Below, piece after piece: positions 14,013-59,369 of a DNA stretch of 64,000 nt. Source of the DNA: Brachionus koreanus. Lineage: Eukaryota; Rotifera; Eurotatoria; Ploima; Brachionidae. The first letter of the stretch is position 1; each line of letters starts with the position of its first letter. A program made the position numbers and the translations under genes. The notes under the pieces are model-generated. The model searched no databases. It was not told the origin of the DNA and saw nothing but the letters and a program-made list of their open reading frames with translations. The stretch is taken from assembly GCA_016987375.1 (NCBI GenBank), contig PJRA01000016.1, positions 466,599-530,598 on the forward strand, given 5' to 3'.

Positions 14013-17000
14013 ATGAATGGGCCAAGACTGGCGTCAAGCTCGAAGCTGCGCGATGCAGCCACTCGAAAGCACACGGCCAGTGTCATAAGCATGTCTAGCT
14101 CGAACTACGAGGCCAACCCGGTAGCTAGAGAGACCGAGGACGACCAAAATTTGCTGAACACCCCGGCAGTGCGCAACATCCTCGGCTTCGATCAGCGATT
14201 TGACCGCGTCGAGGAGCAAGAGCTGCTCGCCGAGATGAACTGTCACTGGCTGCTCTCCATAGACGACTTCAAAATGCCCATAGACCACCCCCAGGGCATG
14301 ATCACACAAATGAGCCCGCTCAACGACAGCCACATGTATGTTCTGGTGCCGTTTGATGAGTCTGTGGCCGACATTGACTACCGCGAGCTGCATCAGATAA
14401 TTCGCGAGCTGACCATCGGCATCTATGTTCTCAACCAGCATCCCTCTCTTCAACTAGAAGCCAATTTTGATCAAAGCACTTCGTGCCAGCTGCCAGTGGC
14501 CTATGTGGACACTAAGTTGGGACAAATTATGGTCAACACTGACTACTGGCTCAAGGCTCTCTGGCACGGTTCTTTTTTTCCGCGCGAAAAAAGAATCAAG
14601 TTCACCGAAAGGTGGAGACAAATGATCGATGTGGATGCTAATGGCGTCGCTCAGACCAAAAAATCGGTGTTCTACGAGTTCATGAACTCGGGCCTGAGCG
14701 ACATTAGCAAGGACCCGGACTACTCGTCTGTGTTCGAAAATGGGCCCGGCGACCCGACAGGCAAAAAGGATGACAGCAACTCGCTGGCCTTTGGAGTCGG
14801 AATGACCGCTGCCAATAGCGGATTTTTGCACGGCAATCAGCCCTCTTCCATCAACATTCAAGAGTACGACAACATGAGCGAGAACGAAATACGCGACAAT
14901 TTAAACACGCTCAAAGACTGCATTGACAATGTGTCTGTCCTAATGACGTTCGGGCTCAATTCAGTCAAGAGTTACAAGAACATATATGAAATCGACTCGG
15001 ACTACTCGATAAATGCGTGTGTTCGAGGCGACAATCAAAAAATAGACAATCGAATATTTGAGAAAATAAAGCCTATTTTGAACAATCATGAAAATTTTCT
15101 GAGACAAAATTTCGAGAAAAAAAAAGAAATAAAAAAAAATTTAATTTATTTGAAAATAGTTAGTTTTTTGACACCGTTCTTAATTGGTCTAAAGAGAAGA
15201 ATGAAAATACCGGACATGAACAATTTGCTTCCATTGATGACCGGTGACGATGTTCAGACAGAGCGCGAACTGCCGCCACTAATGCTCGGCTCAGATTTCA
15301 AGACAACTAGATTTATACCGCTCATTAATCATGAAAAAAACGACTATTTTCACTTGCATGGCGGAATACAATTTGAACTTGAAACTTGTCCTTTATCTCA
15401 ATTGTAAATATTGATTTTAAATTAAAGCTTTTGATGAGCTTTTAATCTTTTTTGTTTGTAAGTGATTTAGAGAAAGATTATGAAAAGATAGCCTCGAAGA
15501 CAACCAAAATTTTAAAGAGTTTTTTGGACTCAGAACAGCTGCAGGAATACAAAATTCCTGTGATCACTATCAATGATAAAAAGTATGTATTTAAGTATTT
15601 TTTTTCAATAAAAAATTTAAAATAAAAGAGATTAAAGTAAAAACGCAGCAACAACAACAACAACAAAAAAAAACTGAATTAAAATAAATTAAATATTTAT
15701 GAATTAATATTGGCATTGGTATTTTTCTGTAAATTAAAAAATTTTATTTAATAAAAAAAAAATCTGTATCGGGGATATTATTCAAATAAAAGAAGCCTTG
15801 GAAAAATTTTTCAAAAAAAAAAAATCCAATTGCTTGAGGGGTTGAATATTTTTCAAAACTTGAAATGCTTTTATTGCGTTTAAGTTATGTGTGCACTAGA
15901 ATTAAATTCAAAACTGAGATTTATTTTTATTTTGGCGAAATTTTTTACTTTTTTTTTTCTAATTCTTTTGTATTTTTGTTCAAAAGAAAGAGTTAAGTTA
16001 AAATTTAATATAATAGTTAATTAGAAATTCATACATCAAAAAGTTTTAGCTTATTTTATGGATTATTTTATGTTGACACATAAAATTTTGCACTTTTAAA
16101 AAAAATTGAATGCTTTAGCATCTATGAAATTCTTAAACTTTAAATCAAAAACAAAACATGACAATATTTTCATTTTTCTTTACAAAGCTTTTGAAAACAT
16201 GAATTTAGCAAACTATTCTTGATAATAAAAATAACAAAATAAAACAAAAACATCGCTTAAAAATTTTTTAAGCCGATTTCTTTCACTAAATTAACGTTAC
16301 AAGTCAACTCTACTTACGGCAGAAGTTTTAGTGAAGCCAAAAGTTTCGAAAAAAAGAAGTGTGGTTGAATGATTCTTCTTGCTTCATTCAATCCAACTAT
16401 ACATATTCACTTGTGACACGGGTGCATCAAGCGAAGACTGTGTGTAGCTTATGCATGCACATTTTCGTATGTGCCTTTTGTGATCCGTTTTGATAGCATA
16501 GAAGCAAAACTTTCTGAACGCTTGCATGTGCTGTTTGAGCGCGATCTTTGACTATTTGTGAATATCTTATATATAAGGTATCCTCTCTGTTCTACCATTA
16601 TCCTATTATCTAATACGCTCTTTTTTGGACTCTTTCAATAATTTTTTTTAGCTCTTATTGATTTTGTAATCAAAATGTGATTTAATCAGTTCTGTTTAAA
16701 AATATAAACTTTTCTTTATCTAAGCATACAAATGAGTTCCATTTCAAGTTGAGTTTATTTTAATTTTTGTATGCTTGTCTTTTAGAATTTTCTTTTGAAT
16801 GTTGCTCTTTTACTAATTTTATCTAATTTCCAAAATTTGAGCAAATTTCATTTTTAATGTAAAAGAAGAAAAAAATTTTTAAAAAATTTAACAGAAATTT
16901 TAAATTCAAGTTTTTACATAAGGAAAAACTTTTTTGATTGTTAAAATTGTAAAATAAAATAAAATTTATTTATCCGTCGAATTTTTTTTAATTTTGTCAA

Positions 17001-20000
17001 AAAAATTAATTTTTCTATGAAAAAAAGACATAAAATTATGAATCATTTTTACCATTTTCAAAGGGTAGAGAAAATTAACTTTAATTAATTAATTAAGATG
17101 ATTTGATATAACATTAGAAGCACCAAGCATTTTTTTTCACGGTTTTTTAATTCAAAAATATTCTATAAAATAACTTTAATAATTTTATAAAGGAATATCA
17201 TCATGAAAATTAATAATTTTATTAAAGAAAATTTTAAATCTACATAAATCAATAAAGATAATAATAAATAATATCATATGAAAAATCTATCCAAAAGATA
17301 CAAGGTTTTAAAAATTTTCAAAAGAGTCCAAATGTCTCTTTTGGTGCTTCCAATGTTAATTGTTTCATTGACCATTATAAAATATATGTCTTAAAAAAAT
17401 TTATTGCAAGAAATGCTATAAAAAAGTACATAAATTATATGTTTTTTCTATTAAAAAGAACTAAGAATTTATGTGTAAAGCAAAACGAATTTTTCATCGT
17501 ACCAATTTATCATTAGAAAGCCAGGCTGATTTTTCATTTAAATTTCAAATTAAATTAAACATTTTCTTTGAAAATTAATTCATTTTCTATAAAATTTATA
17601 TTCAAAATTGTTAGCTAATTAAAGTCATTTTTTGAAATTTTATTAAAAAATTTGTTTTATATGAACTAATTATTTTATATATAAATTTTTTTAAATTGAA
17701 TTAAATGATTAAATAAATAACAAGTAAAAAGATATTTCAATTTGCTGTTTTAAATTGATTAAAAAAAAATTTTAATTTAAAAATTTTATTTAAATTTTTC
17801 TTTGATTGACTTCATTTTTTTAAAACTATTTTTTATTATTTAGTTTATTTATTGATGAACAAAAGCTTAAGATGAAATGATTACTATCAAAATTCGAAAA
17901 ATATTTTTGAAAATTTTAAATGTGCTTGAATAGTTTTTAATTATGATAGTTGACAATATATGTCAATAAACTTAAAATTTTTAATTCAAGTTTAAATTTT
18001 CTATTATAAGCCAATAGATAATTGTTTCATAATTTTTATCAATTTAATTCTAAAATTGATTATCTAGTTAAAATTTTCAATAATTCAAAAACCTATTTTT
18101 TTTAAAGATACTGGTCGATTAGAATCGACTTTGAAAGCTATTATTCGGCATTTCCACAAAAACCCTATTGGGTTTACAAACTAACAGATGACTTGTCCAA
18201 ACTGAAGCCAAAACGTTTGCCAATGACAGACATTCAAATATATGACTTATTCAAAAAATACTTTGGCTATAAAAAAGCCACTAAATTTAAAGTATAAAAT
18301 AATTTAGAAAATAAAATTTTTTTTCTTCTTAATTATAAAAAAAAATTTTAGAATTCAGCATCTGGTCTTCGGGCAGCTTCCCATCGAGGCCTAATAAACA
18401 TATTTCAGAGCTTTGCTCGCAAAATGCCAATCAATAGACTTTCAAAGCATGACGAATATGGGCTTTGTTTGACCCATTATGCAGCAATATACAACCGGCC
18501 ATTGATTATCAGCTCATTAATAATGGTCTCCATTGATGTAAATACCAAACAACAAATAGACTATTTAGCTGTGGGTCCAATGCCGCTGCATTACGCAGCA
18601 AGAAGTGGTTCTTTGGACACAGTATCTTGTTTATTAGCTAGCTATGCGAATATTAGCTTTGCAGACAATGATGGTTGGGCTCCCATTCACCACGCTTGCT
18701 ATTTTGACAATGTGCCTGTGATAACACTTTTAATCCGAAGGCAACAAGAGTTGTTGGAGATTACGACTCGTAGCGAGTCGCGCAAAACCCCTATCTTGGT
18801 TGCTGGGAGTGCAGGATCTCTTGAGGCTGTCAAATGTCTTATCCGCCTTGGTGCTAACATTGCTTTTCATGACGAAAATAACTACAACATCATTCACATA
18901 GCTGCACACCGTAATCGAACAAATATTATTGATTATTTTATTGAACATGAATATCCACAATTACCAACTTGGAAGCTGTTAATTAACATGTTGGCCAGTG
19001 AAAAAAGCCAAGACAGATTGGCTAGTGTAAGATGTCTTCAGCTCTTGACAAATCAAAGCAAAAAATTTTGGTCTTCAATTTTAAATGTTGGCGGCATTGA
19101 AAAGCTAATTTCTATTATGAGGTTATATGTACAAAGTTTGGCCAAGGCGAGTGTTCAGGATGTCGAAGAAGAGATAAGTTTTAATGCTCTGTCAGTTATT
19201 TGCAATTTGTCTGATCAAACAGCGGTAAAACAAAGGTTAAATGAGATTAAAGATCTTGGTAGTATATTGATAAAAATTTTGGAATTGTCCAAAAATGAAG
19301 ATTTGCACTCAAGATCGGCTATTTTGATTGCTGATGTTGTTTCAATTGACGAGAATAATAAGAATTCGTTTGCTCAACAGGGATGCTTGGATCGTCTCAT
19401 GGCTCTGTTGGATGGTGAATACGAGGACTTGCTAGTCAATGCCATAAATGCTTTGGAAATTTTGTGCAAAGACAATCAAACTAATCAGGAATATTGTGCT
19501 GAAAAGGGAATTTTTCAGAGCTTTTTAAGCATCATTGAACTTAATTCAGGTAGCTTGCTTTAATTTTTGAGTTAATCAAAATTTTCAGTTAAATTAATAA
19601 GAAAAAAGCAAAAAAAAAAATTATTTATTAGATCTTATTTGTAATGTCAAGTTAAATTTAAGATTTATACTATTTTTTTTGGTTCTTTTAAAAATTTTCA
19701 ATTTAAATGAAAGTCTTTTTTTATTTTTTGTTGATATTTTTCTAAAAGTTCAATTATCATCTCGTTTTTGAATATATCCATGATTGAAATTGAACTTAAA
19801 GTCATTAAAATATTTTGATTGCATCCTCTTCCATTCATTCTCTCATTTTAAAGAATTTACCTAATTTTTTTCTCTAATAAATCATTTAACAGATTATCTG
19901 TTAACTGAATCTGTTGACTGAATTCTTTTTTGAATTAAAATTTTTATTAACAATAAAAAAGTAGCTTGATATTATTTTAATAGATTAAAATTAAGAATTT

Positions 20001-23000
20001 TTATTTTAATTTTTGAAAAGATAAATTAATTAAAAAAAATTAAAATTTTATTTTAATAAACTACCTAAATTATTTGAACAAAAATTTTTATTTTTTAAGA
20101 TTTGATAAAATCATCTGTTGCTGCCGCCATTTCGGCACTGACCTACAGAAACAAAAAAAATCAAATAATAGCATTAAATGAAGGAATATTGAGACCACTG
20201 GTCGACTTGTTAAAGTCGCGTAATATGACCGTTCAGTTGAAAGTATCAACGGCTCTCGAGGCTTTGGCCATCCGAAATCAGACAACACAAGACGCTTTGC
20301 TTGAGCTGGAAGCAGCTACTTACATGATCCGGCTGTTGGAGGTAAAAATTGCATCTAAATTTGAATAAAAAATAAAATCAAAAAAAAATTGCTACCTAAT
20401 AAGGATCATTCAACAATAAATGCTGTTGTTGAACTCGGCTCTAATCAAAAACTAATTAGTCTAAATGTTGAGCACATTTCAGACGAGCCGGATAAAATTT
20501 TAACCTTTGGAATAAAAAAATTTTTTTGTCCAAATTTTAGACAATATTTAAATAGAAAGGTTTGATCCTTTGCAATTTTTAAGTGTCGCTTTGGCGTTTG
20601 CATGAGCGACCATGATTGTTAAAAGTATTTGCTTTGATTTGATTATTTAAATGTTCTTTGTTATTTTATAGAGAATGTACTATGTTGGAGCCACTGTAGG
20701 TAAACGCTGATCGGGTTTTTCGAGTTTGAGTTTGTTTTAGCTTTTAAGAAAACCCTATTGGCATTTTAATTTTCTCTTTTTTGTTAATATGAGTGCGTGT
20801 CTGTTTGTATGTGAACCCCTTTTTATTTGCTTTCTAGTCACCAAACCATGGATGAACAAGAATAAAATATTTGATTTAAAAATTTATTTATATTCTGATT
20901 AAAACAGCTTGTGTCCAAAAGTTAAGCTTATAACTCTTTTATTCTAAAAGAAATTTAAATAAGGAAAAAAGCTTAATTATATAATTTATTTAATACATAT
21001 TTTATTTGATATCTTAATTTTTAACAAGAAGTTAGATTTTTACTGCATCGAGTTGGTCATCTGCACCTCAATTATTACCCGGTCGAAACTGGTCCATCAT
21101 TTTTTATGAAAAGGGTTTAAACATGTCCTGCAGAGATATTTTGAATCTAAATAGGCTATATAATTAATAACAAATCTCCATTTTATTTTGCAGAATTTTC
21201 AAGCTGTAACAAATTATGATCAAAAAGAACTTGTACAGTTGAATCATAGATCAACTTTATTCTATTGCATAGTTGCATATTTATAATGTAATTTGAGACT
21301 AAAGAAAGATTGTTATAACTAATTGTTTATAAAATAATTAGATAACTATAATAATATTTTTTTCAAAAATTGAAATGTTTAATTTTGAAAACAATAGACA
21401 AGCTCTTTCAATTATTATTTAATCATTGTTTATTTTTTTTTGAGAGTCTCAGAGGAAATAAGACAAGTCATGGAAGATAATCAACACAACTTGCTTTTCA
21501 GTTTGTTTTCAATGTTTTTTTGAACTTCAGTTTAAAAAGCAATCTTATTTTGCACAGATTTTGCATACTTTTTCACAAAAAGTTGAAAATTTTAAAATTT
21601 TTGTATGACCAAAACTGATCATAGTGCCAATTTTTAAACATTCATTAGTTTGTAAATTTTAAAGAATATAAAAATTTATTTTAAGTCCAAAATTAGAATC
21701 AAAAATTTTTATTTTTTTTTTCATCGATTAAAATAGATAAATTTTTCAATTGTCCATTCTTTTTTCAAAGACAAAATTGATAAAAATTTTATTCTTTTTC
21801 ATCCGCTGATGTTTTTTCACTTAGTTTTTTTTTTTACTCACCTTGATTGTTTATTAGATAAAAAAAAATATGATAATAGATAAGATAATATTTGATGTAT
21901 AATAGATAAAATCGAATATGGAAGATTGGTCGATCATAATTCGAGAGCAGGCCGCAATGACTTTGTGGACATTGGCCGGTGCTCAAAAACCGCAGCGTAA
22001 AATGATAGCTGAAAAAATAGGCATATCTCAGATAATAAGCATGTTGATATCAAAATCAGAAAAGCTACAGTATGTTGGCGCCAAATGTGTTGTCTCGCTT
22101 GTATTTGAAAATTTGAGCAACCAAAATTTAATTCTGAAAGAAAACGGTATTGATCCATTGATAAGGCTGCTAAAACTAGAGAAAACAAGTGACCGGGTCA
22201 TATTGGCTGTGGTTGAAACAATTGGTGCTCTATGTGTAGATATAGCTCATGTAAATAATGAAAGAACCCAGACAGAGCTAGCCGAAAAGGGTGCTCTAAC
22301 ATTGCTGCTGAGAATACTAGAAAATCCTCCATCGAAATTTATTCAAATCGAAACAGCCCATGCAATTGCTTGTTTAATTCTAAACAGGCCAAATAGCGAG
22401 TATTTGGAAAAAAAGCTAGATATTAGTCTTATTCTGGGTCTATTGGAAACAAACGATTTGGAAATGAGACTAAAAGCAGGCTCGGCAATTACTGTACTTG
22501 CTTACAATAATACCGAAAATCAGTACGATATCAAAGTAAATGGTGGCATTTCATACGACTATTATGCTGTTTATTTTGAAAAAAAGAGCATAAATCCAAT
22601 TCTACTTTGTCGGGCTTGTTTTCAAGTAAGTGTTGCTTTATTATTTTCTTTAGACAAATAAAATAAAATTTAATATTTCAATAAATTTTCTAAAAAAAAC
22701 AATTAATTTTAGACTGTTGTACTAGCACGAGTGATAGTGGGAAGAGATCATGTATGGTTGACAGCTCAGGGAATCAACAAACTTGTCCAACTGCTTTTAT
22801 TTGACGATGATCAAGTGGTGATTCAGACAGCGAGTTATTTGTCTAGTTTGGCTCATACTAGAACAGGTATTACAGACGCCATGATTACATGTGATGCAGT
22901 AGACATCTTATGTGACCGTCTGTATTCGCCAAATGACCAAATTCGTTTTGCCAGTGCTATAACACTTGGTTATTTGAGCTTCAACCGAACAGCTTCGCGG

Positions 23001-23426
23001 CTATTGTTACACAATTGCAGAAACTATCCACATCTGTACAAGACTCTTATGTCAATTATTCCATCTAATGCCAAAATATCCGGACAATTTGTGCAAAGTT
23101 TTCAAACATCTTTAACACTAGGTTTACCTAAACTCCTTGTACACAACCAAGTCAAATTTTATAGTGTCAATCGCAACCCAAAAGCCCAGGACGATTTCAA
23201 AGGGTTTTACTCTGGCAAAGAGTTAAATAGAACTAATTTTTCAAAAATGAGCTTCTACGATATTGATAAATTAATCAAGCCAAAATCAAATGAAAATTTT
23301 ACAGCCACCACAAGTCGATCACAATCTGCACCATTGTCCAAGCATATCAAGGACTTACAATCTATAAATAAGACTAGAAATGCAACTATGATTGAAATAA
23401 AAAAACAGGCTAAAATGGCTTCATAA
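14013..23426 (+). CDS. ANKAR: Ankyrin and armadillo repeat-containing protein (7 coding exons)
   Basis: Spliced CDS: 14013-15403, 15463-15582, 18108-18291, 18352-19549, 20100-20341, 21906-22625, 22713-23426. All junctions are GT-AG with matching phases and the total is 4569 nt, or 1522 aa, close to vertebrate ANKAR (about 1430). The N-terminal third is a non-repeat region. Exon 4 carries ankyrin repeats (e.g. GPMPLHYAARSGSLDTVSCL, DGWAPIHHACYFDN) and then armadillo repeats continue through exons 5-7 (e.g. REQAAMTLWTLAGAQ, NQNLILKENGIDPLIRLL, ASAITLGYLSFNR). These are protein-interaction scaffolds; the cellular role is poorly known. Intron 2 is about 2.5 kb and contains a MITE; intron 5 (about 1.6 kb) contains a SINE-like copy. 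Exon 1 up to about 15090 is strikingly G+C-rich compared with all later exons. Confidence 0.9.
15643..15671. repeat. (CAA)n microsatellite
   Basis: Run of CAA units followed by poly-A inside ANKAR intron 2. Confidence 0.8.
16290..16620. other. Less AT-rich block inside ANKAR intron 2
   Basis: About 330 bases with clearly higher G+C than the surrounding intron, including CTTATATATAAGG at about 16566-16578. No long open frame and no recognisable RNA gene. It could be a regulatory element or an old insertion. Confidence 0.3.
17511..17660 (+). mobile_element. MITE family A, truncated copy 3
   Basis: Begins ATTAGAAAGCCAGGCTGATT and stays alignable with the reverse complement of 12830-12980 (phrases TTCAAATTAA, AAACATTTTCTTTGAAAATT, TTAATTCATTTTC). 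The other terminal repeat is not visible. Lies in ANKAR intron 2. Confidence 0.6.
21083..21150 (-). repeat. SINE-like dispersed repeat, copy 2 (fragment)
   Basis: Shares GTCGAAAC, TTTTTTATGAAAAGGGTTTA and CAGAGATATTTTGAA with 12097-12165. Located in ANKAR intron 5. Confidence 0.45.
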
Positions 23427-24447
23427 TTTTTTATAATTTTAGTTTTTTTTTTTTAAACTAATAAATTTTTTATTTAAAACTACTGTTATTTAATGATTAC
23501 AAATACAAAAATTTTTAAAAAAATAAATTAGAAATAAAAAATATATTGAAGTATTTTATTTTGGACAATCAAAACCAGAGTTTTTATAAATTTAATTTTT
23601 TATGTTTTTTTTCTTGACTCAACTAAATAGAATATGTAAATTTAGAAAATTTTGTAATAAAATCAACTCCATGCCGAATTTGAGTTGGTCTAAAATGGAA
23701 TATTCAAATTCTAAAATGTTAAATAAAAATTTCATCTTTTAAATAACAAATTTTACAATCATTGCATCTATCAGCAAAAAACTTGGTAAATATATCATAA
23801 ATTTAAAAGAATGAATTTAAAAGAATGATCTAGTATTTAATTAAATATATAATAATAATCGTAATTAAAAAAATTCATATATATTTATAAGTAGACCTTG
23901 TCTTTGTATAGTCTTTCTTTTTCAAAATACCCATTTTAGTCGTTTTATTAATTCTAACTTTTATTTCAAAATTTTTTATTTTTATTCAGACGAGCAATTT
24001 TTTGCTTGTTTTTCTCATTAGAAAAAGATTATTATTGGCGAAGAATGAGAAAAATATTTTCAATGGGTAATTTAAAAGATAAAGAGAACCGTTTTAAAAG
24101 ATATAATAAAGTAAAAGTAACTTAAAATTATAATTTTTTACATAATAAAAGTTTATTTGAAGAACATGAAGACAAAAATGATCGAGTTGATTGAGTAAAT
24201 AATAAAAATTTGCTGAAATTTTGTTAAAGACGATGAGGACTTACAGTCAAAAATTTAGATATTTGTAAAAGTTGAGACTTTCAATAAAGATAGTATGGAA
24301 AATATACAAATGATTTAAAGGATCATTGATTCAAATAGATATTTATTTTATTTGAAAAAAGACAATATCAAATTTTTAAAAATTAAATAAATTAATATTT
24401 AACTTAATTAATAAGGAGTTAATTTAAAATAAAAAAGGTAATATTTC
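23427..24447. other. Spacer between ANKAR and hairpin locus A
   Basis: ANKAR 3' untranslated tail, then AT-rich sequence. No gene seen. Confidence 0.4.
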
Positions 24448-24501
24448 TTCATTTTATTTATTTTATTATAAAAAATAAGATATGATGATAACAAGTCCAG
24501 A

Positions 24502-24568
24502 ATATCGACTATTTGCAATAGCCAGGCACTAGGTACACAGCTAGCGAGGCTATTGACAAACAGTGAAA
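24502..24568 (+). ncRNA. microRNA-like hairpin A1
   Basis: 5' arm ACTATTTGCAATAGCC pairs with 3' arm GGCTATTGACAAACAGT: 3+4+7 bp blocks split by a single mismatch and a 1x2 internal loop, with a terminal loop of about 25 nt. The 3' arm carries the family sequence GCGAGGCTAT-TGAC-AAACAGT. Processing and strand are not proven. Confidence 0.65.
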
Positions 24569-24620
24569 CACTGATACTTTAATTATTTAACAATAATTAA
24601 CCAAGTCGGTGTGATTATTC

Positions 24621-24697
24621 AACTTTAACTGTTTGTCATAGTCTCGCGACCAGACACATTGATACACGCGAGGCTATCAAAAAACAGTAAAAGTGGA
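24621..24697 (+). ncRNA. microRNA-like hairpin A2
   Basis: 5' arm from CTTTAACTGTTT to CATAGTCTCGCG pairs with CGCGAGGCTAT...AAAACAGTAAAG: about 11 bp apical and 11 bp basal helices around a small internal loop, with a terminal loop of about 18 nt. This is the best-formed member of the cluster. The 3' arm is a family member. Confidence 0.7.
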
Positions 24698-24733
24698 ATT
24701 GAGAAAAACTAATTTTGTAGTTGAAAATGAGCA

Positions 24734-24818
24734 CAACAACTACTGCTTAGAACAGCTTCGCGTCAACTCCTCTTTTTCTAAAAATCGCGAGGCTATTGGT
24801 AAACAGTACTAATTGTAA
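24734..24818 (+). ncRNA. microRNA-like hairpin A3
   Basis: 5' arm TACTGCTT...AGCTTCGCG pairs with 3' arm CGCGAGGCTATTGGTAAACAGTA: 9 bp apical (one G-U) and about 8 bp basal (one C/A mismatch) around an internal loop. Terminal loop about 23 nt; one of the four copy A/copy B differences lies in it. Confidence 0.65.
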
Positions 24819-24855
24819 GTGAATTAATGTAATAGATGGATGAAAATTAAACTTG

Positions 24856-24926
24856 CTCAATGGTACTAAAACAGGGCATAGCGGTTGAATATTCCTACCC
24901 GCTATACCGTATTTTAGTGCATTGAA
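24856..24926 (+). ncRNA. microRNA-like hairpin A4 (different family)
   Basis: 5' arm CAATGGTACTAAAACAGGG... pairs with ...CCGTATTTTAGTGCATTG, closed at the top by CATAGCGG/CCGCTATA; terminal loop about 12-15 nt. It lacks the GCGAGGCTAT motif, so it is a second hairpin family inside the same cluster. Long stem with only scattered mismatches. Confidence 0.65.
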
Positions 24927-24965
24927 ACAAAGTAATTAGTTGATTTGAAATTGTTGTTTTTGTGC

Positions 24966-25044
24966 CCGAACGATTACTGCTTAAAAATACCCTCGCATTA
25001 GGCCTCATTTACAAGCGAGGCTATTTATAAACAGTTCTTTTTCG
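24966..25044 (+). ncRNA. microRNA-like hairpin A5
   Basis: 5' arm ACTGCTTAAAAATACCCTCGC against 3' arm GCGAGGCTATTTATAAACAGT: 18 of 21 positions pair, with isolated mismatches. The terminal loop (about 17 nt) contains another of the copy A/copy B differences. The 3' arm carries the family motif. Confidence 0.7.
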
Positions 25045-25059
25045 TGACATGACATATTG

Positions 25060-25149
25060 TTAGCTAAAGTTAAAAAATGATGAATGTTCTAATCGGTTTG
25101 GGTAATGCAAACTCGATTAAATAGAAGAGAGTGTGTTAGCTTAAAAGTG
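25060..25149. other. Non-homologous insert between duplicated blocks, copy A
   Basis: 90 bases with no counterpart in copy B (which has an unrelated 69 bases at 27984-28052). A weak inverted pairing (TTAGCTAAAGTT / GTTAGCTTAAAA) is visible. Confidence 0.6.
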
Positions 25150-25552
25150 TTAAGTTAAACTTTTAAACCGGGCCATTATGAATAAATAATTTAGTTCTCC
25201 ATTTAATACACATACTGTTTTCATTGAACAGGACCATCTTGTTTGTCTTCATTTTGACCTATTGATTCATTTGATTTGTGTAAGCTTATGATTTTTGTTT
25301 CTAAATAGAAGAAAAACTTTTTGAATGAATTAATTTTTTTAAAACAAGTGTTTATATAGCCGATGTACTTGTTAAAAAGTCTTATGAAAGTTGACTTGTA
25401 CGAGACACATAAACACATGCATTTTAACTAGTGAGTGTTCAAATCATATGCTTTTGGATTGAAAATCAACATGATTCTCGTTCTCCTACACACATTTACT
25501 CTCTTTCTATTTCACTCTGTAATGAATTACAAAATCATACATCAGTCTAGTC
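25150..25552. repeat. Duplicated block 2, copy A
   Basis: About 403 bases repeated essentially identically at 28053-28455. The 65-codon open frame inside (reverse strand, 25221-25418) is AT-biased and lacks coding character; I treat the block as non-coding. A weaker hairpin occupies about 25346-25418. Confidence 0.9.
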
Positions 25553-27370
25553 TCAATGCAGCAATAGTTTTTACTAAGGATTGTTTTTTTACAATAACGT
25601 TTCATCTGGAGCGATTCATTGTTTTAAGCGCATATTAGTGCGATTAGAGATTGTGTCTTTCATGTTCATAGTCCTTTATAAAAATTAAAAAAACAATTTC
25701 TAAACTAGTTTGATTTTAAATCACTCAATTAGTTTTTATTTGAAAATAATTCGTTTCAACAAGTTTAGTTATTATTAATTTATCTCTTTTATAAATATTT
25801 TTTTTCATTTAGATTTATTTTATTTTGTATTTAATATTTACTTGTTTAGGACAAATTTCAAACAGATTTTTAAGATAAAATTTAATAAAATAATTTAAAG
25901 AAATTTAGAAATTTTTCATCATTTAAGAGAGTATTTTGTCGTATTTTTTTCATTTTAGTTAATTATAATTTTTCTTAGAAAGCAAGAATTTTTGTTTTAA
26001 TTGTATTTGAAGTTTATCATACCTCATTTTTATTTGAAAAATGTACAATAATAATATACCGTAAAAATTGAAAAGCTTCATAAACATTCTTTGGCTTTAT
26101 GATATTTATAAATTTGTTTATAAAACTCTAATTTTTTGAAAAAAATTAAAGCAATTTAGATTTTTCATTTAATAAAAAATCTAATATTTTTTCCTCTAAA
26201 TATATCAGAAAAAATAAAAAAATAAATAGAGCTCTCTATCAACTTCAGATTTTATTTTTTTGATTGACTTTTATTCAAATTTTCGAGAATATTCTAATTT
26301 TAAAATTCACATTTTTTTTGTATAAATCAGAATAACATATAAATTTTTTGTCAGCTTTTAAATAATAACAATAATCTTCATTGAAATAAATGACTGTGTC
26401 TCAGAGAAAGCAATTAATGAATTTGAAAGTTTAAAATTTTATTATAAAAATTAAAAAGATTGATTTCTCGTTTAAAATTACAATTTAAAATATTTTAGTT
26501 TTCAGTAATATAAAATTAAATTTAGTTTGATTAAAGCTTTATTTTTAGTTGAAATTTTTAATTTTCTATTTAACGAATAATGAATTATTATTAACTGTCT
26601 TAATAAATTAAACATTAAAATTAAAGTTCAATAAATGTTAAAAATTATTTATGAAAGATTGTTAATAAATTTTGATTTTTGTGAAAAAAAATCCCAATTT
26701 TACATTATTTATTATAACATTAAATTAATTAGTGTAAACGAGCATGAATTTAATAATATTGGTAGAAACAAACAACGAAAATTGTACTAGAGTGGGACTA
26801 AAATTGTAATCCTGTTTTGTTGATTTAGTCAGACTATGTTGAGAGTAGAATAATTAAAGTTCGTGTGAAGCAAAAATTCTACACAATAAAATTTTAATCA
26901 ACTACTAAATAGTATCTAAAATAGGCTTCAGTTCTTTAAAAAAAAAAATCTTCCTCCAAAATAGACATTAATTTTTTGGATTTTCATTTCTATTAGTTTT
27001 ATAATTGCTTCTATATACATAAAAATTTTCCAAAAAATGGTTTTCTAAAGGATTTTTTGATCAATACATGGTACCAAAGACCGCGGTGGATGCTATATTT
27101 AATAAGAAGCGGTTAACTAAAGTTTTTAAATATATTTATATATTTGAGTAAAGTGAATTCATATTTTAAGAAAAATAATAATTTTAGGTATATGTGTCGG
27201 TAATATAGGAAAAAAAGGAATTAATGGATTTTCAAATTGGCAAAATAATTTAGGTAGAAATTTTAAAAAATTTAAATTTATTAAATCATAAACATTTATT
27301 AATTAAACTAAACTAAAAAATAACAAAAAATTTGAATTTATAATGACGAATCTAAAAAAAGATTTAGTTG
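25553..27370. other. Spacer between the two copies
   Basis: 1.8 kb of AT-rich sequence. Short frames only, no hairpins of the cluster type and no gene seen. Confidence 0.4.
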
Positions 27371-27424
27371 TTCATTTTATTTATTTTATTATAAAAAATA
27401 AGATATGATGATAACAAGTCCAGA

Positions 27425-27491
27425 ATATCGACTATTTGCAATAGCCAGGCACTAGGTACACAGCTAGCGAGGCTATTGACAAACAGTGAAA
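27425..27491 (+). ncRNA. microRNA-like hairpin B1
   Basis: Identical to A1 in both arms and loop. Confidence 0.65.
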
Positions 27492-27543
27492 CACTGATAC
27501 TTTAATTATTTAACAATAATTAACCAAGTCGGTGTGATTATTC

Positions 27544-27620
27544 AACTTTAACTGTTTGTCATAGTCTCGCGACCAGACACATTGATACACGCGAGGCTAT
27601 CAAAAAACAGTAAAAGTGGA
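27544..27620 (+). ncRNA. microRNA-like hairpin B2
   Basis: Identical to A2 in arms and loop. Confidence 0.7.
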
Positions 27621-27657
27621 ATTGAGAAAAAACTAATTTTGTAGTTGAAAATGTGCA

Positions 27658-27742
27658 CAACAACTACTGCTTAGAACAGCTTCGCGTCAATTCCTCTTTT
27701 TCTAAAAATCGCGAGGCTATTGGTAAACAGTACTAATTGTAA
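27658..27742 (+). ncRNA. microRNA-like hairpin B3
   Basis: Arms identical to A3; one C/T difference in the terminal loop (GTCAATTCC against GTCAACTCC). Confidence 0.65.
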
Positions 27743-27779
27743 GTGAATTAATGTAATAGATGGATGAAAATTAAACTTG

Positions 27780-27850
27780 CTCAATGGTACTAAAACAGGG
27801 CATAGCGGTTGAATATTCCTACCCGCTATACCGTATTTTAGTGCATTGAA
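27780..27850 (+). ncRNA. microRNA-like hairpin B4
   Basis: Identical to A4. Confidence 0.65.
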
Positions 27851-27889
27851 ACAAAGTAATTAGTTGATTTGAAATTGTTGTTTTTGTGC

Positions 27890-27968
27890 CCGAACGATTA
27901 CTGCTTAAAAATACCCTCGCATTAGGCATCATTTACAAGCGAGGCTATTTATAAACAGTTCTTTTTCG
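27890..27968 (+). ncRNA. microRNA-like hairpin B5
   Basis: Arms identical to A5; one loop difference (AGGCATC against AGGCCTC). Confidence 0.7.
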
Positions 27969-28052
27969 TGACATGACATATTGATATCTAAAATAAGATT
28001 TTAATATAGCTCTTAAAATTGCTGTTCTAATAAATCAAGTTTTTAAATTGCC

Positions 28053-28455
28053 TTAAGTTAAACTTTTAAACCGGGCCATTATGAATAAATAATTTAGTTC
28101 TCCATTTAATACACATACTGTTTTCATTGAACAGGACCATCTTGTTTGTCTTCATTTTGACCTATTGATTCATTTGATTTGTGTAAGCTTATGATTTTTG
28201 TTTCTAAATAGAAGAAAAACTTTTTGAATGAATTAATTTTTTTAAAACAAGTGTTTATATAGCCGATGTACTTGTTAAAAAGTCTTATGAAAGTTGACTT
28301 GTACGAGACACATAAACACATGCATTTTAACTAGTGAGTGTTCAAATCATATGCTTTTGGATTGAAAATCAACATGATTCTCGTTCTCCTACACACATTT
28401 ACTCTCTTTCTATTTCACTCTGTAATGAATTACAAAATCATACATCAGTCTAGTC
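28053..28455. repeat. Duplicated block 2, copy B
   Basis: Second copy of 25150-25552, offset 2903 bases. Homology ends sharply at TCTAGTC (28455). Confidence 0.9.
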
Positions 28456-28878
28456 CAAAATTAAAATTTAATTTTCAGAGTTTGTCCTCCTTTATAACGT
28501 CAGAACTATCAAAATATTTGAATCTTTAAAATTTGAAACAAAAATTCTTTTTAGAAGTCTAAAGTTTCATTTTGATATATTCTTTATTTTTAATGAATTA
28601 AAAATAAATAAACTTTTAAAAAAAATTAAATCAATAATTAATTTGATAAAATTTTTGTTAAGACAAATATTATGTCTATACAAAAAAATAAATAAATTCA
28701 TAGTTTCATATCGTCTCCATTTTCAGAAGCATGCTCCACCTTAAATAAACTTTCAATTTCACCACCAAAAATTTTTTATTGATATTTCTTAAATAATTTA
28801 TTATAGTTCACACATAAAATAATATGCTCTCTTTAATTATTATTATATCATTATATTCATTATCCATTCCTTTTTCAA
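28456..28878. other. Spacer before the basic TM protein
   Basis: AT-rich, no gene seen. Includes the presumed promoter and 5' leader of the next gene. Confidence 0.4.
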
Positions 28879-29736
28879 ATGAAATCAAATATTAATGAAT
28901 ATTATAAAAAATATAGTTTAAAAAGTCCAATTTTAAAACTAGAAAATATTGATAATTATTTGAAAATGAATTCGACAAAAACCGAGTCAATGCGTCTAAG
29001 GACACGTACATCAACTAGAAAAACTTCTGATGAAAGCATGCATTCAGACATTTTAGTTGAGAGACCCAAGAGGCGCAAGTCAGCAGATCCAGCCAACGAT
29101 CCGGCAAAGCGCTCAACCCAAAGGTCCAAATCAAGCCGAAATAGAAGTAATAGCCGAAGTAGATCTAACAAAACAAATACACCCAAATTATATACAAAAA
29201 AAGATTTGGAAACAAGTCCCGTCAAGACCCGTTCTCGTCGCAAGACAGCCACCAAAACTACTAGTGAGACTGAGAAAGTACACGAACCAGATATAATTGA
29301 AGTTGAAACCATCAAGACTACATTTGCTTCTTGTGAATATGATATCGTTGAAAGACCAAAAGAACAATCAAAAGAACAAATTAGCTCTTCTAATTTAAAT
29401 GAAAATATCAGTTCGGAACACAGATTTGAAGATGATGAAATTCAAGATACAAAAAATAGAGAGAAAAATTTCAACGAAAATGAATTAATCAAAGACAAAG
29501 ACACCAAAGGTTGTAGTTATTACAATGCCGGTTATCTTAGATTCACTACTTGTACAGTTCTTCGAATGTTTTTAGCAACATTTATGTTCTTAGTCATTTT
29601 AACTGTTCTTAATAACATTTACAAATTTGAATCTCTTACTCAATTAAGTGATAAATGGCCCTCTATATCGTCTTTTAAAAAGAATATAGATCAATCAATT
29701 CATTCATTTACTAATTTTGTCTTCGAATTATTTTAA
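28879..29736 (+). CDS. Basic, Ser/Arg-rich single-TM protein (unrecognised)
   Basis: Uninterrupted frame of 285 codons. The first ATG is at 28879; the ATG at 28966 (MNSTKTESMRLRTRTSTRK) is an alternative start. Residues about 38-130 are very basic with RS/SR dipeptides (RSKSSRNRSNSRSRSNK) and KKDLETSPVKTRSRRK, suggesting nucleic-acid or chromatin contact or a nuclear localisation signal. The middle is acidic and polar. A single hydrophobic helix lies at about 225-245 (TVLRMFLATFMFLVILTVL), followed by about 40 residues. A basic N-terminal domain plus one C-proximal TM is the plan of several inner-nuclear-membrane proteins (LAP2/LEM type), but I see no LEM motif, so this is only a suggestion. 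Codon use looks coding throughout. Confidence 0.7.
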   Translation: MKSNINEYYKKYSLKSPILKLENIDNYLKMNSTKTESMRLRTRTSTRKTSDESMHSDILVERPKRRKSADPANDPAKRSTQRSKSSRNRSNSRSRSNKTNTPKLYTKKDLETSPVKTRSRRKTATKTTSETEKVHEPDIIEVETIKTTFASCEYDIVERPKEQSKEQISSSNLNENISSEHRFEDDEIQDTKNREKNFNENELIKDKDTKGCSYYNAGYLRFTTCTVLRMFLATFMFLVILTVLNNIYKFESLTQLSDKWPSISSFKKNIDQSIHSFTNFVFELF

Positions 29737-32060: not shown

Positions 32061-34004
32061 TTAATTTTTCTCATATTTTTTCAATGCTTCTTGTAAAAAT
32101 TTTGCATATACCATGCTGACTGAGTCCTCATAAATTCCGTTGCTGACATCCACATGATCGATTTCTTTATTAGACATTTCTAGAAGATCGTTGGCATTCA
32201 ATTGATGAATAATTCTTCCATCTGCATCCATTATGTAAGACATGACAGGAAATTTATAAGAATCTAGTGGCAACTTGCATCTTTTTTTATCATCAGAAGA
32301 AACATCAGTATTATTCAAACAATTCTTTAAATATATAAAAAATTTTAGATTAATTTTTTTTTCAACTTTTATTTTTACTTCTAAATCTACAATCAAAGAC
32401 CAGCTGCTAACGAACTTTTCATCGAGCAGCTTCATTACGGCCGAACTCTCGAGAGCAGTTTCTCTTAGAGTTCGGCCCGAGCCTCAGCAGGACTGGTCAT
32501 CCAAAGCACCCCATAGCAAAATATAATGAACAAATTTGTTCAATTCTTGGGCTTTTTTAAATGATTCCAAAAATGAATAGTAAGTTATTTTCTTAAAAGG
32601 ATAAAAAGCCCTTTCAAGCAAAGAAAAAGCTTCGCTTTCATCAATTTCTTCATCCCATTTAATCAATTTTATCATATTTTCATATCTTTTTTGATTCATT
32701 GGTTTCATCAATGAATCGGAAACTTTAATTTTTTTAACTTGATCATTTTCTGTATGATTTGTGACCGATTTTAGCGAAGGCATTGATGAAACTATTTCCA
32801 TTCGATTCACATATCCAATATCAACCTCCATATTTTCGTTTATGTCATTCAACCATTCCATATCTATAAGAACACTTTAGTCACTTCAATCAGAACAACA
32901 AGTTCAATTCACCTATGTTCAAGCGTTTTTCATTGGGAACATATATATTAAAGTATTCAATGTGACTTGAATCTTTGGAAATGATTAAGCGACCGTTAAA
33001 TTGGGCTGGAGTGAACCAAAATGGCAAATATGGTGGATCATTTAGTTGAAATTCAGCATGAATTCTTTTTAATAATTAAAATTGTTTTTTTTTTTTTAAA
33101 TAATAAATAGATACCTAAAAAAAATGTCTAAATAATTTCCATTTTTTGCGCGAAGAACCAAAGAAGTACCTTGAGGTGCAAAACGAGACATCAAAAATGG
33201 CTTCTTGTGAAACATTTGAAGTAGTCTGAACAAAATGATCTGATTATGATCCGGCTCTGGTGGATTATATCTTTTGTTAGATAGCTGGTTCGAGTCTCTT
33301 TTCAACCTTGGAATCAAATCCCACACTTGGCCTATTTTGACATTGTCTACATCTTGAGGCAACAAAAACCTGAATTCTTTGCAACCAAAATTCAACACAG
33401 GTCGGTTTGGCTCTTTCCAATTTTTCAAATTTTTTATCGAGTCTGAATTAGTCTAAAAAATTCATCAAAAAAGAAAATAATTTTTTTTCTTCCTAAATTT
33501 ATATTTTACCAAAAATTCATATTTGTTCGAATTTAATTTAGTCACATCTAGTGGTTCATAAAAAGCATTTAGAGTAATAAATTCATCATCATCCGATATA
33601 GCCACATCATAGTCATGTTCTAACTTTGAAAAATTAATTTTTAATTTATTATAAACAAAATCAAAAATAGTATTTAATACTTTAATTTCTAGAAATTTAA
33701 GTGCCAAAGGCTCAAATTCATCTATGTCAATTGTGCCATCAGAATTAAGATCATATTTTTGATACAAAAGCAGAACATCTGTTGATATTGGCAAAGTTGA
33801 ATCAAAGCCCTGATTATGACCCAAACTTGAATTGGTAAAACAGAAATTAGCTATGATTATAGAGCTAATAAGGGAAAAAATTAAAATCTTAAAAGTAGAT
33901 TTTTTGCATTCTATTGTGTAATTGTCGTTCGCTATTGATGATCTATTTATTGAAGAAGCCAGATTTGTTTCATCGTCTCCAATACCTTTTTTGTGTCGTT
34001 TCAT
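32061..34004 (-). CDS. SELENON: Selenoprotein N, with UGA read as selenocysteine
   Basis: Five exons on the reverse strand: 34004-33510, 33452-33115, 33064-32913, 32863-32379, 32324-32061. Phases match and the total is 1734 nt, or 577 aa (human is about 590). N-terminal TM helix (ILIFSLISSIIIANF), then an EF-hand (DLNSDGTIDIDEF), then conserved SelN blocks including RIHAEFQLNDPPYLPFWFTP, FNIYVPNEKRLNIDMEW and [20 protein letters not shown]. The redox motif SC-U-G uses an in-frame TGA at 32486-32484 (residue 455). The protein is an ER-membrane oxidoreductase linked to calcium handling (SERCA regulation) in other animals. The SECIS follows the stop. The last intron is only 54 nt. Decoding needs tRNA-Sec, EFsec and SBP2, which must be encoded elsewhere. 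Without the UGA read-through the two halves look like separate small ORFs. Confidence 0.95.
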
Positions 34005-59025: not shown

Positions 59026-59369
59026 AGGCAATGTGAAATTTCATACAAAATTTTCAATACAAAAATTAAAAAATTCTATAACTTTTGTTATAAAGGCCAA
59101 AATTTGTTCTGCTGTTGAAACAAAGTGAAACAACTGTTGTTTCACCAACTGGGGAAGTCTGCAAAATCTCTGCAAATTGATTGCGATTTATTTTCAATAT
59201 TATTATATTGGGTGAAATTTTGCAGAGATTTAGCAGACTTTCCCAGTAGGTGAAACAACAGTTGTTTCACTTTGTTTCAACAGCAGAACAAATTCTGGCC
59301 TTTATAACAAAAGTTATAGAATTTTTTAATTTTTGTATTGAAAATTTTGTATGAAATTTCACATTGCCT
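59026..59369. mobile_element. Foldback element with about 150-bp arms
   Basis: Left arm 59026-59178 and right arm 59218-59369 are near-perfect reverse complements (about four mismatches), starting AGGCAATGTGAAATTTCATA. The centre is about 40 bp. The arms contain GAAACAACTGTTGTTTCA, itself a palindrome. Non-coding; lies between PLC-beta exons or in its 3' region. Confidence 0.85.

Follow-up and report, generated by a model that had tools for sequence, protein, structure and literature searches.

The locus

The DNA analysed here, referred to as the window, is a 64-kb stretch with about 27% GC (contig 31, bases 466599-530598) from a genome of 83.26 Mb in 92 contigs. At about 24493-25050 it contains five hairpins, labelled H1 to H5, which stand in tandem about 120-230 nt apart inside a block of 612 bases (24448-25059). 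A second copy of this block, 99% identical and absent from the preliminary description of this DNA, lies 2.9 kb away at 27371-27983. The cluster is flanked on one side by plus-strand frames (18424-23426) that encode ankyrin and armadillo repeats and may form a single gene, and on the other by a plus-strand frame at 28879-29736 without a Pfam match. The features are as follows, on the strand that is argued for below and with predicted ends for arms and precursors:

24448-25059, minus: cluster copy 1, five hairpins; order of transcription H5, H4, H3, H2, H1 if minus
24544-24565, minus: H1 predicted guide (5p arm); predicted pre-miRNA 24504-24565
24504-24527, minus: H1 predicted 3p arm
24668-24689, minus: H2 predicted guide (5p arm); predicted pre-miRNA 24625-24689
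24625-24645, minus: H2 predicted 3p arm
24787-24808, minus: H3 predicted guide (5p arm); predicted pre-miRNA 24739-24808
24739-24759, minus: H3 predicted 3p arm
24862-24919, minus: H4, a hairpin of unrelated sequence, with its 5p arm predicted at 24898-24919 and its 3p arm at 24862-24883
25015-25036, minus: H5 predicted guide (5p arm); predicted pre-miRNA 24973-25036
24973-24994, minus: H5 predicted 3p arm
25150-25552, minus: upstream block, 403 bp, which may be a promoter or the 5' portion of the primary transcript
27371-27983, minus: second copy of the cluster, which differs from the first by three substitutions and one additional base, all outside the predicted arms
27467-27488, minus: H1b predicted guide, a match to the arm pattern
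27591-27612, minus: H2b predicted guide, a match to the arm pattern
27711-27732, minus: H3b predicted guide, a match to the arm pattern
27786-27843, minus: H4b hairpin, at the copy 1 position plus 2924
27939-27960, minus: H5b predicted guide, a match to the arm pattern
28053-28455, minus: upstream block of copy 2, 403/403 identical to that of copy 1

The window also holds an alpha-catenin frame with 87% identity to a protein of Brachionus calyciflorus and 94% to one further protein; identities to other named organisms, including one bdelloid rotifer, are 50-53% (among the matches listed, 120 of 1383). The DNA is that of a brachionid rotifer, close to but distinct from the source of the B. calyciflorus protein. 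A long near-palindrome at 59100-59290, whose two arms (GTTCTGCTGTTGAAACAAAGTGAAACAAC... and its complement) each measure about 75-90 bases, looks like a small non-autonomous transposon. Contigs C31 and C35 begin with runs of TTAGGG.

Folding of the hairpins

Four of the hairpins (H1, H2, H3 and H5) carry GCGAGGCTAT-N4-AAACAGT as their plus-strand arm. A search of the 64-kb window for the minus-strand arm pattern, with up to 3 mismatches, returned 10 matches as compared to a mean of 0.04 in shuffled sequence, i.e. eight exact ones and two complementary arms with 2 mismatches. Relative to dinucleotide shuffles, folding z-scores for H1 to H5 are -5.36, -4.28, -3.35, -6.06 and -5.53 on the minus strand, where 0, 1, 1, 0 and 0 of 200 shuffles are at least as good, and -3.74, -5.98, -2.33, -4.28 and -3.08 on the plus strand (0, 0, 4, 0 and 1 of 200). 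That is, on both strands each hairpin folds better than most shuffles, and the comparison with shuffled sequence that had been proposed in the preliminary description turned out in favour of all five. In sliding folds across the 64 kb, ranked by best-strand energy, the ten hairpins of the two copies make up 10 of the top 21 non-overlapping 90-nt windows; eight of the remaining 11 have a GC content of 0.44-0.60, far above that of the window as a whole. The hairpins are real and exceed chance, as does the arm common to four of them, so that this part of the preliminary description stands.

The most stable 90-nt fold of the window (32396-32485; -43.1 on minus, GC 0.52) sits at the edge of two minus-strand frames, 32061-32435 and 32484-32861. 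Stretches of 90 nt with 53-60% GC also occur in a plus-strand frame of 464 aa at 14013-15407, which has no Pfam match and faces long frames on the opposite strand.

Canonical animal microRNAs derive from imperfect hairpins with arms of about 22 nt and a loop of at least 8 nt; below the cut, the lower stem spans about 11-13 bp. On the minus strand, all five hairpins are imperfect, with arms of ~22 nt and loops of at least 8 nt. From the predicted arms, loops measure 14-27 nt and precursors 58-70 nt, and pairing of the lower stem is predicted to extend to -9 to -13 in 5/5, H1 being limited at -13 by the end of the folded stretch. For monogonont precursors, section 7 of PMC12256650 gives a mean of 69.

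Probable strand of transcription and layout of the predicted guide

Four lines of evidence, namely folding energy, single-hairpin shape, CNNC motifs and the layout of a 5p guide, favour the minus strand. The summed folding energy is -158.8 kcal/mol on minus (H1 to H5: -33.7, -28.0, -29.8, -34.6, -32.7) as compared to -125.9 kcal/mol on plus (-24.4, -29.9, -20.4, -28.7, -22.5). The minus strand thus folds better in 4/5 cases, the exception being H2 (plus -29.9 versus minus -28.0; z -5.98 versus -4.28). In the first copy, a single-hairpin shape is adopted by all five hairpins on minus and by three of five on plus.

A CNNC motif downstream of the 3' cut is common in canonical animal microRNAs, and a basal UG is common in vertebrates; neither is required. 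On minus, the distance from the predicted 3' cut down to the start of CNNC is 17, 17, 16, 20 and 17 nt (with extra motifs at 14, 19 and 24), that is 16-20 nt in 5/5, and the motif falls wholly inside the -16 to -21 range of PMC9976908 in 4/5. At a local background of 0.096 for starts at 16-20, 5/5 has a probability of about 8e-6 if the hairpins are independent, a figure that goes with a range chosen after the data were seen and with a Drosha cut that is itself predicted. On the plus strand, no CNNC occurs within 30 nt downstream of any of the five hairpins. Judged by eye against further ranges from PMC9976908, a basal UG at -14 to -12 is present in one of five hairpins on minus and UGU/GUG at +21 to +26 in two of five. 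That source scanned CNNC at -16 to -21 and reports it as absent in Caenorhabditis and enriched in other animals; according to PMC8761633, no effect of the motif was seen in flies or zebrafish.

Read on minus, the shared arm is a 5p arm of the form N-ACUGUUU-NNNN-AUAGCCUCGC (22 nt; in DNA letters N-ACTGTTT-NNNN-ATAGCCTCGC). Positions 2-8 and 13-22 are identical in 4/4 paralogues (H1, H2, H3 and H5), and positions 1, 9-12, 23-30 and -1 to -12 are all variable. In this numbering, position 1 was set one base before the block so that its limits match seed, centre and 3' region, the alternative being a shift by one base. Contiguity of the four variable positions within the 21-base block has a chance of 0.003. 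As judged from the four paralogous sequences, this succession of fixed 2-8, variable 9-12 and fixed 13-22 is the anatomy of an Argonaute guide. Section 7 of PMC12256650 describes bilaterian guides with strongly conserved seed and 3'CR and variable positions 9-12 and 17-22, shown on MIR-1; fixation of 17-22 in our guides departs from this usual pattern and is the one unusual point of the layout.

Taken together, the transcript most likely corresponds to the minus strand. The orientation implied in the preliminary description is probably wrong: the arm quoted there is the antisense of the likely guide. We regard it as unlikely that the plus strand, alone or together with the minus strand, gives rise to the microRNAs, in which case GCGAGGCTAT-N4-AAACAGT would be a 3p guide. 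Bidirectional microRNA loci do exist, the five plus-strand hairpins also exceed shuffles and H2 is better on plus. However, the summed stability is lower on this strand, two of five folds split, CNNC is missing within 30 nt downstream in 5/5, and the variable bases of such a 3p guide would lie at about 11-14 rather than at the boundary between centre and 3'CR.

Pairing of the arms

Within the cluster, the paralogues have almost only the 5p arm in common, and loops, lower stems and spacers have diverged. The claim that the opposite arm drifts and yet keeps pairing holds up: when the arms of the four hairpins are assigned to each other in all 24 possible ways, each hairpin's own arms give the best result (-111.5 kcal/mol, against an average of -88.5 kcal/mol where none of the pairs is correct). 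One non-cognate pair nonetheless outdoes the cognate one (5' arm of H2 with 3' arm of H5, -27.9 versus -25.7). Strong covariation, as claimed initially, was overstated. In the RNAalifold consensus, whose alignment seems to place the 3' arm of H5 one base off, both partners changed in 2/21 pairs, and the term for covariation (+2.25) is unfavourable. Classical covariation is weak because one arm is fixed.

Relatives of the family

A covariance model of the family found 16 matches in the window. These are eight hairpins on minus with 72-81.5 bits, of which four had served to build the model, and their plus-strand counterparts with 21-33 bits; none corresponds to H4. On this sequence evidence, H1, H2, H3 and H5 are best read as paralogues and H4 (24862-24919) as an unrelated companion hairpin. 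Genome-wide, the guide pattern with up to 3 mismatches yields 76 matches as compared to 61 for the reversed control. Beyond the eight exact guides and the two complementary arms, folding covered the two additional matches with 2 mismatches: L017 is at best an irregular hairpin with a weaker fold, and L018, which adjoins what by its look is presumably a tRNA gene, is without a comparable hairpin, and both were rejected as paralogues.

The covariance models of Rfam 15 gave no match at gathering score in the window and none at E up to 1 in 24300-28500, in accord with the initial impression that the arm belongs to no recognised conserved family. Searches of the literature with the guide and H4-arm strings, in DNA and RNA letters, returned no rotifer or microRNA-gene paper among the matches listed, and the passages covered of PMC12256650 and PMC8728216 print no such guide. 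It is plausible, on a comparison that covers Rfam and the literature searched, that the family is lineage-restricted. For Brachionus plicatilis, PMC12256650 and PMC8728216 give 54 microRNAs in MirGeneDB and 35 conserved families, and the H1/H2/H3/H5 family may be among these MirGeneDB microRNAs.

Known microRNAs were tried as yardsticks. The canonical miR-1 string has no match in the genome, whether 1 mismatch or three free bases are allowed. The Rfam let-7 model has no match at E 0.001, and the controls likewise gave none. A let-7-like string with one mismatch occurs once in the genome (L049, G000:C5:2263670-2263686); the fold around it leaves the seed outside the stem, and the string is therefore unusable as a yardstick.

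Duplication of the cluster and the upstream block

The two cluster copies differ by substitutions at 24730, 24767 and 25004 and by an extra base in copy 2 after 24708. Two of the four differences lie in loops (H3 and H5), two in spacers or flanks and none in a predicted guide or star arm, which with n=4 is not significant. The upstream block is identical at 403/403 positions. Between block and cluster, 90 bp in copy 1 (25060-25149) and 69 bp in copy 2 (27984-28052) are unlike in sequence amid a duplication that is otherwise 99-100% identical. A BLAST search with each part found two places in the 83-Mb genome and no third copy of cluster or upstream block. The outer flanks of the two copies have only short matches of 21-60 bases in common, which argues against a simple allelic mis-join as the origin of copy 2; we therefore disfavour this origin. 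A local assembly error could still account for copy 2. The best reading of these sequences is that the cluster was duplicated recently and the upstream block with it.

A copy of TATATAAA lies in the upstream block at 25358 on minus; it is one of 5 on this strand of the window and is thus a weak signal for the block. A sigma-70 scan was set aside as being of no use for animal DNA.

A probable microRNA cluster, duplicated

With considerable confidence, we interpret the locus as a polycistronic cluster of canonical microRNAs on the minus strand, composed of four paralogues with 5p guides plus H4, and duplicated. The original proposal of microRNA-like hairpins finds good support in structure, arm pairing and the conservation layout; the orientation it implied is probably wrong, and strong covariation is overstated.

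A minus-strand transcript, perhaps starting in 25150-25552, would carry H5 to H1. Drosha would cut each stem about 9-13 nt above its base, the loop would be taken off by Dicer, and the 5p strand would be loaded. The resulting guides would consist of the seed ACUGUUU (2-8), a free centre (9-12) and the fixed part AUAGCCUCGC (13-22) and would repress mRNAs via the seed, probably with 3' supplementary pairing. Having one seed and one 3' half, the four guides would be redundant with one another; a second specificity would come from H4, and the second, near-identical copy 2.9 kb off would raise the dose. Eight matches to the RNase III domain were found in the genome, Drosha-like and Dicer-like frames among them. 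The Drosha-like frames comprise two RNase III domains and a dsRBD, with no PAZ in the frame read, and PAZ is present at two Dicer-like loci. Two Drosha-like frames on different contigs (L050, G000:C36:589926-590723; L051, G000:C21:2148884-2149681) are 98% identical over 713 aa and represent either a recent duplicate or an uncollapsed haplotype.

Several tandem hairpins in a genome with Dicer-like genes could also be a source of endogenous siRNAs (hpRNA) or of other double-stranded RNA. We consider this very improbable, since the stems are short, imperfect and of microRNA size, each with one sharply bounded conserved unit of 22 bases, and since an siRNA source has no need to keep one arm in four hairpins whose loops and flanks have diverged. 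Least credible of all is a by-product of repeats or inverted duplication without RNA function (a mobile element or recent tandem copying), which would fit the recent duplication of the whole cluster but not the restriction to two loci in 83 Mb, nor a 5p arm that is nearly the sole common part among diverged loops, lower stems and spacers, nor arms that still pair.

Returning to the microRNA cluster, one may go a step further and speculate that a two-part target recognition was selected, by seed 2-8 and a fixed 3' half of ten bases around a free centre of four. In this case, the paralogues would read the same bipartite sites, and tandem hairpins as well as duplication of cluster and block would have raised the dose of a lineage-restricted family. 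We put this forward tentatively and hold it to be somewhat doubtful. Perfect bipartite sites of the form GAGGCTAT-N(0-20)-AAACAGT occur twice in the genome outside the clusters, as compared to three times in the reversed control, and hence are not enriched. One of them (L040) overlaps an opposite-strand open frame; at the other (L039), no open frame of at least 90 aa is listed.

Known systems and significance

Clustered animal microRNAs with a shared seed include the mir-35 family of C. elegans and the mir-2 clusters of insects. The present cluster resembles clustered canonical animal microRNAs in its tandem hairpins, its one guide sequence, the drifting star arm and loops, and a lower stem of the Drosha type. 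It differs in that no sequence relation was found in Rfam and in that positions 13-22 are as invariant as the seed. Guides of the let-7/lin-4 type use the seed plus 3' supplementary pairing. Such guides likewise have a conserved seed and 3' region with a free centre between; in contrast, their sequence is unrelated, and perfect bipartite sites are not enriched here. In syndermatan MIR-1, according to PMC12256650, positions 17-22 are more variable, whereas they are fixed in the present guides. The rotifer-specific and novel microRNAs of Brachionus plicatilis in MirGeneDB, as described in that paper, belong to the same genus-level group and are alike in the precursor size expected and in the layout of the guide.

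The cluster is probably a fairly ordinary gene-regulating RNA family, whose layout hints at how targets are recognised. It belongs to rotifers, an animal group with few studied microRNAs, and its young duplication would show such a cluster shortly after its copy number rose. Should MirGeneDB already contain the family, its value is confined to the conservation layout and the duplication. Within one genome, position 1 and positions 9-12 are the only places in the guide where the four paralogues differ. Thus, the shared seed and 3' half may serve as a natural experiment on selection that acts through 3' pairing and not through the seed alone.
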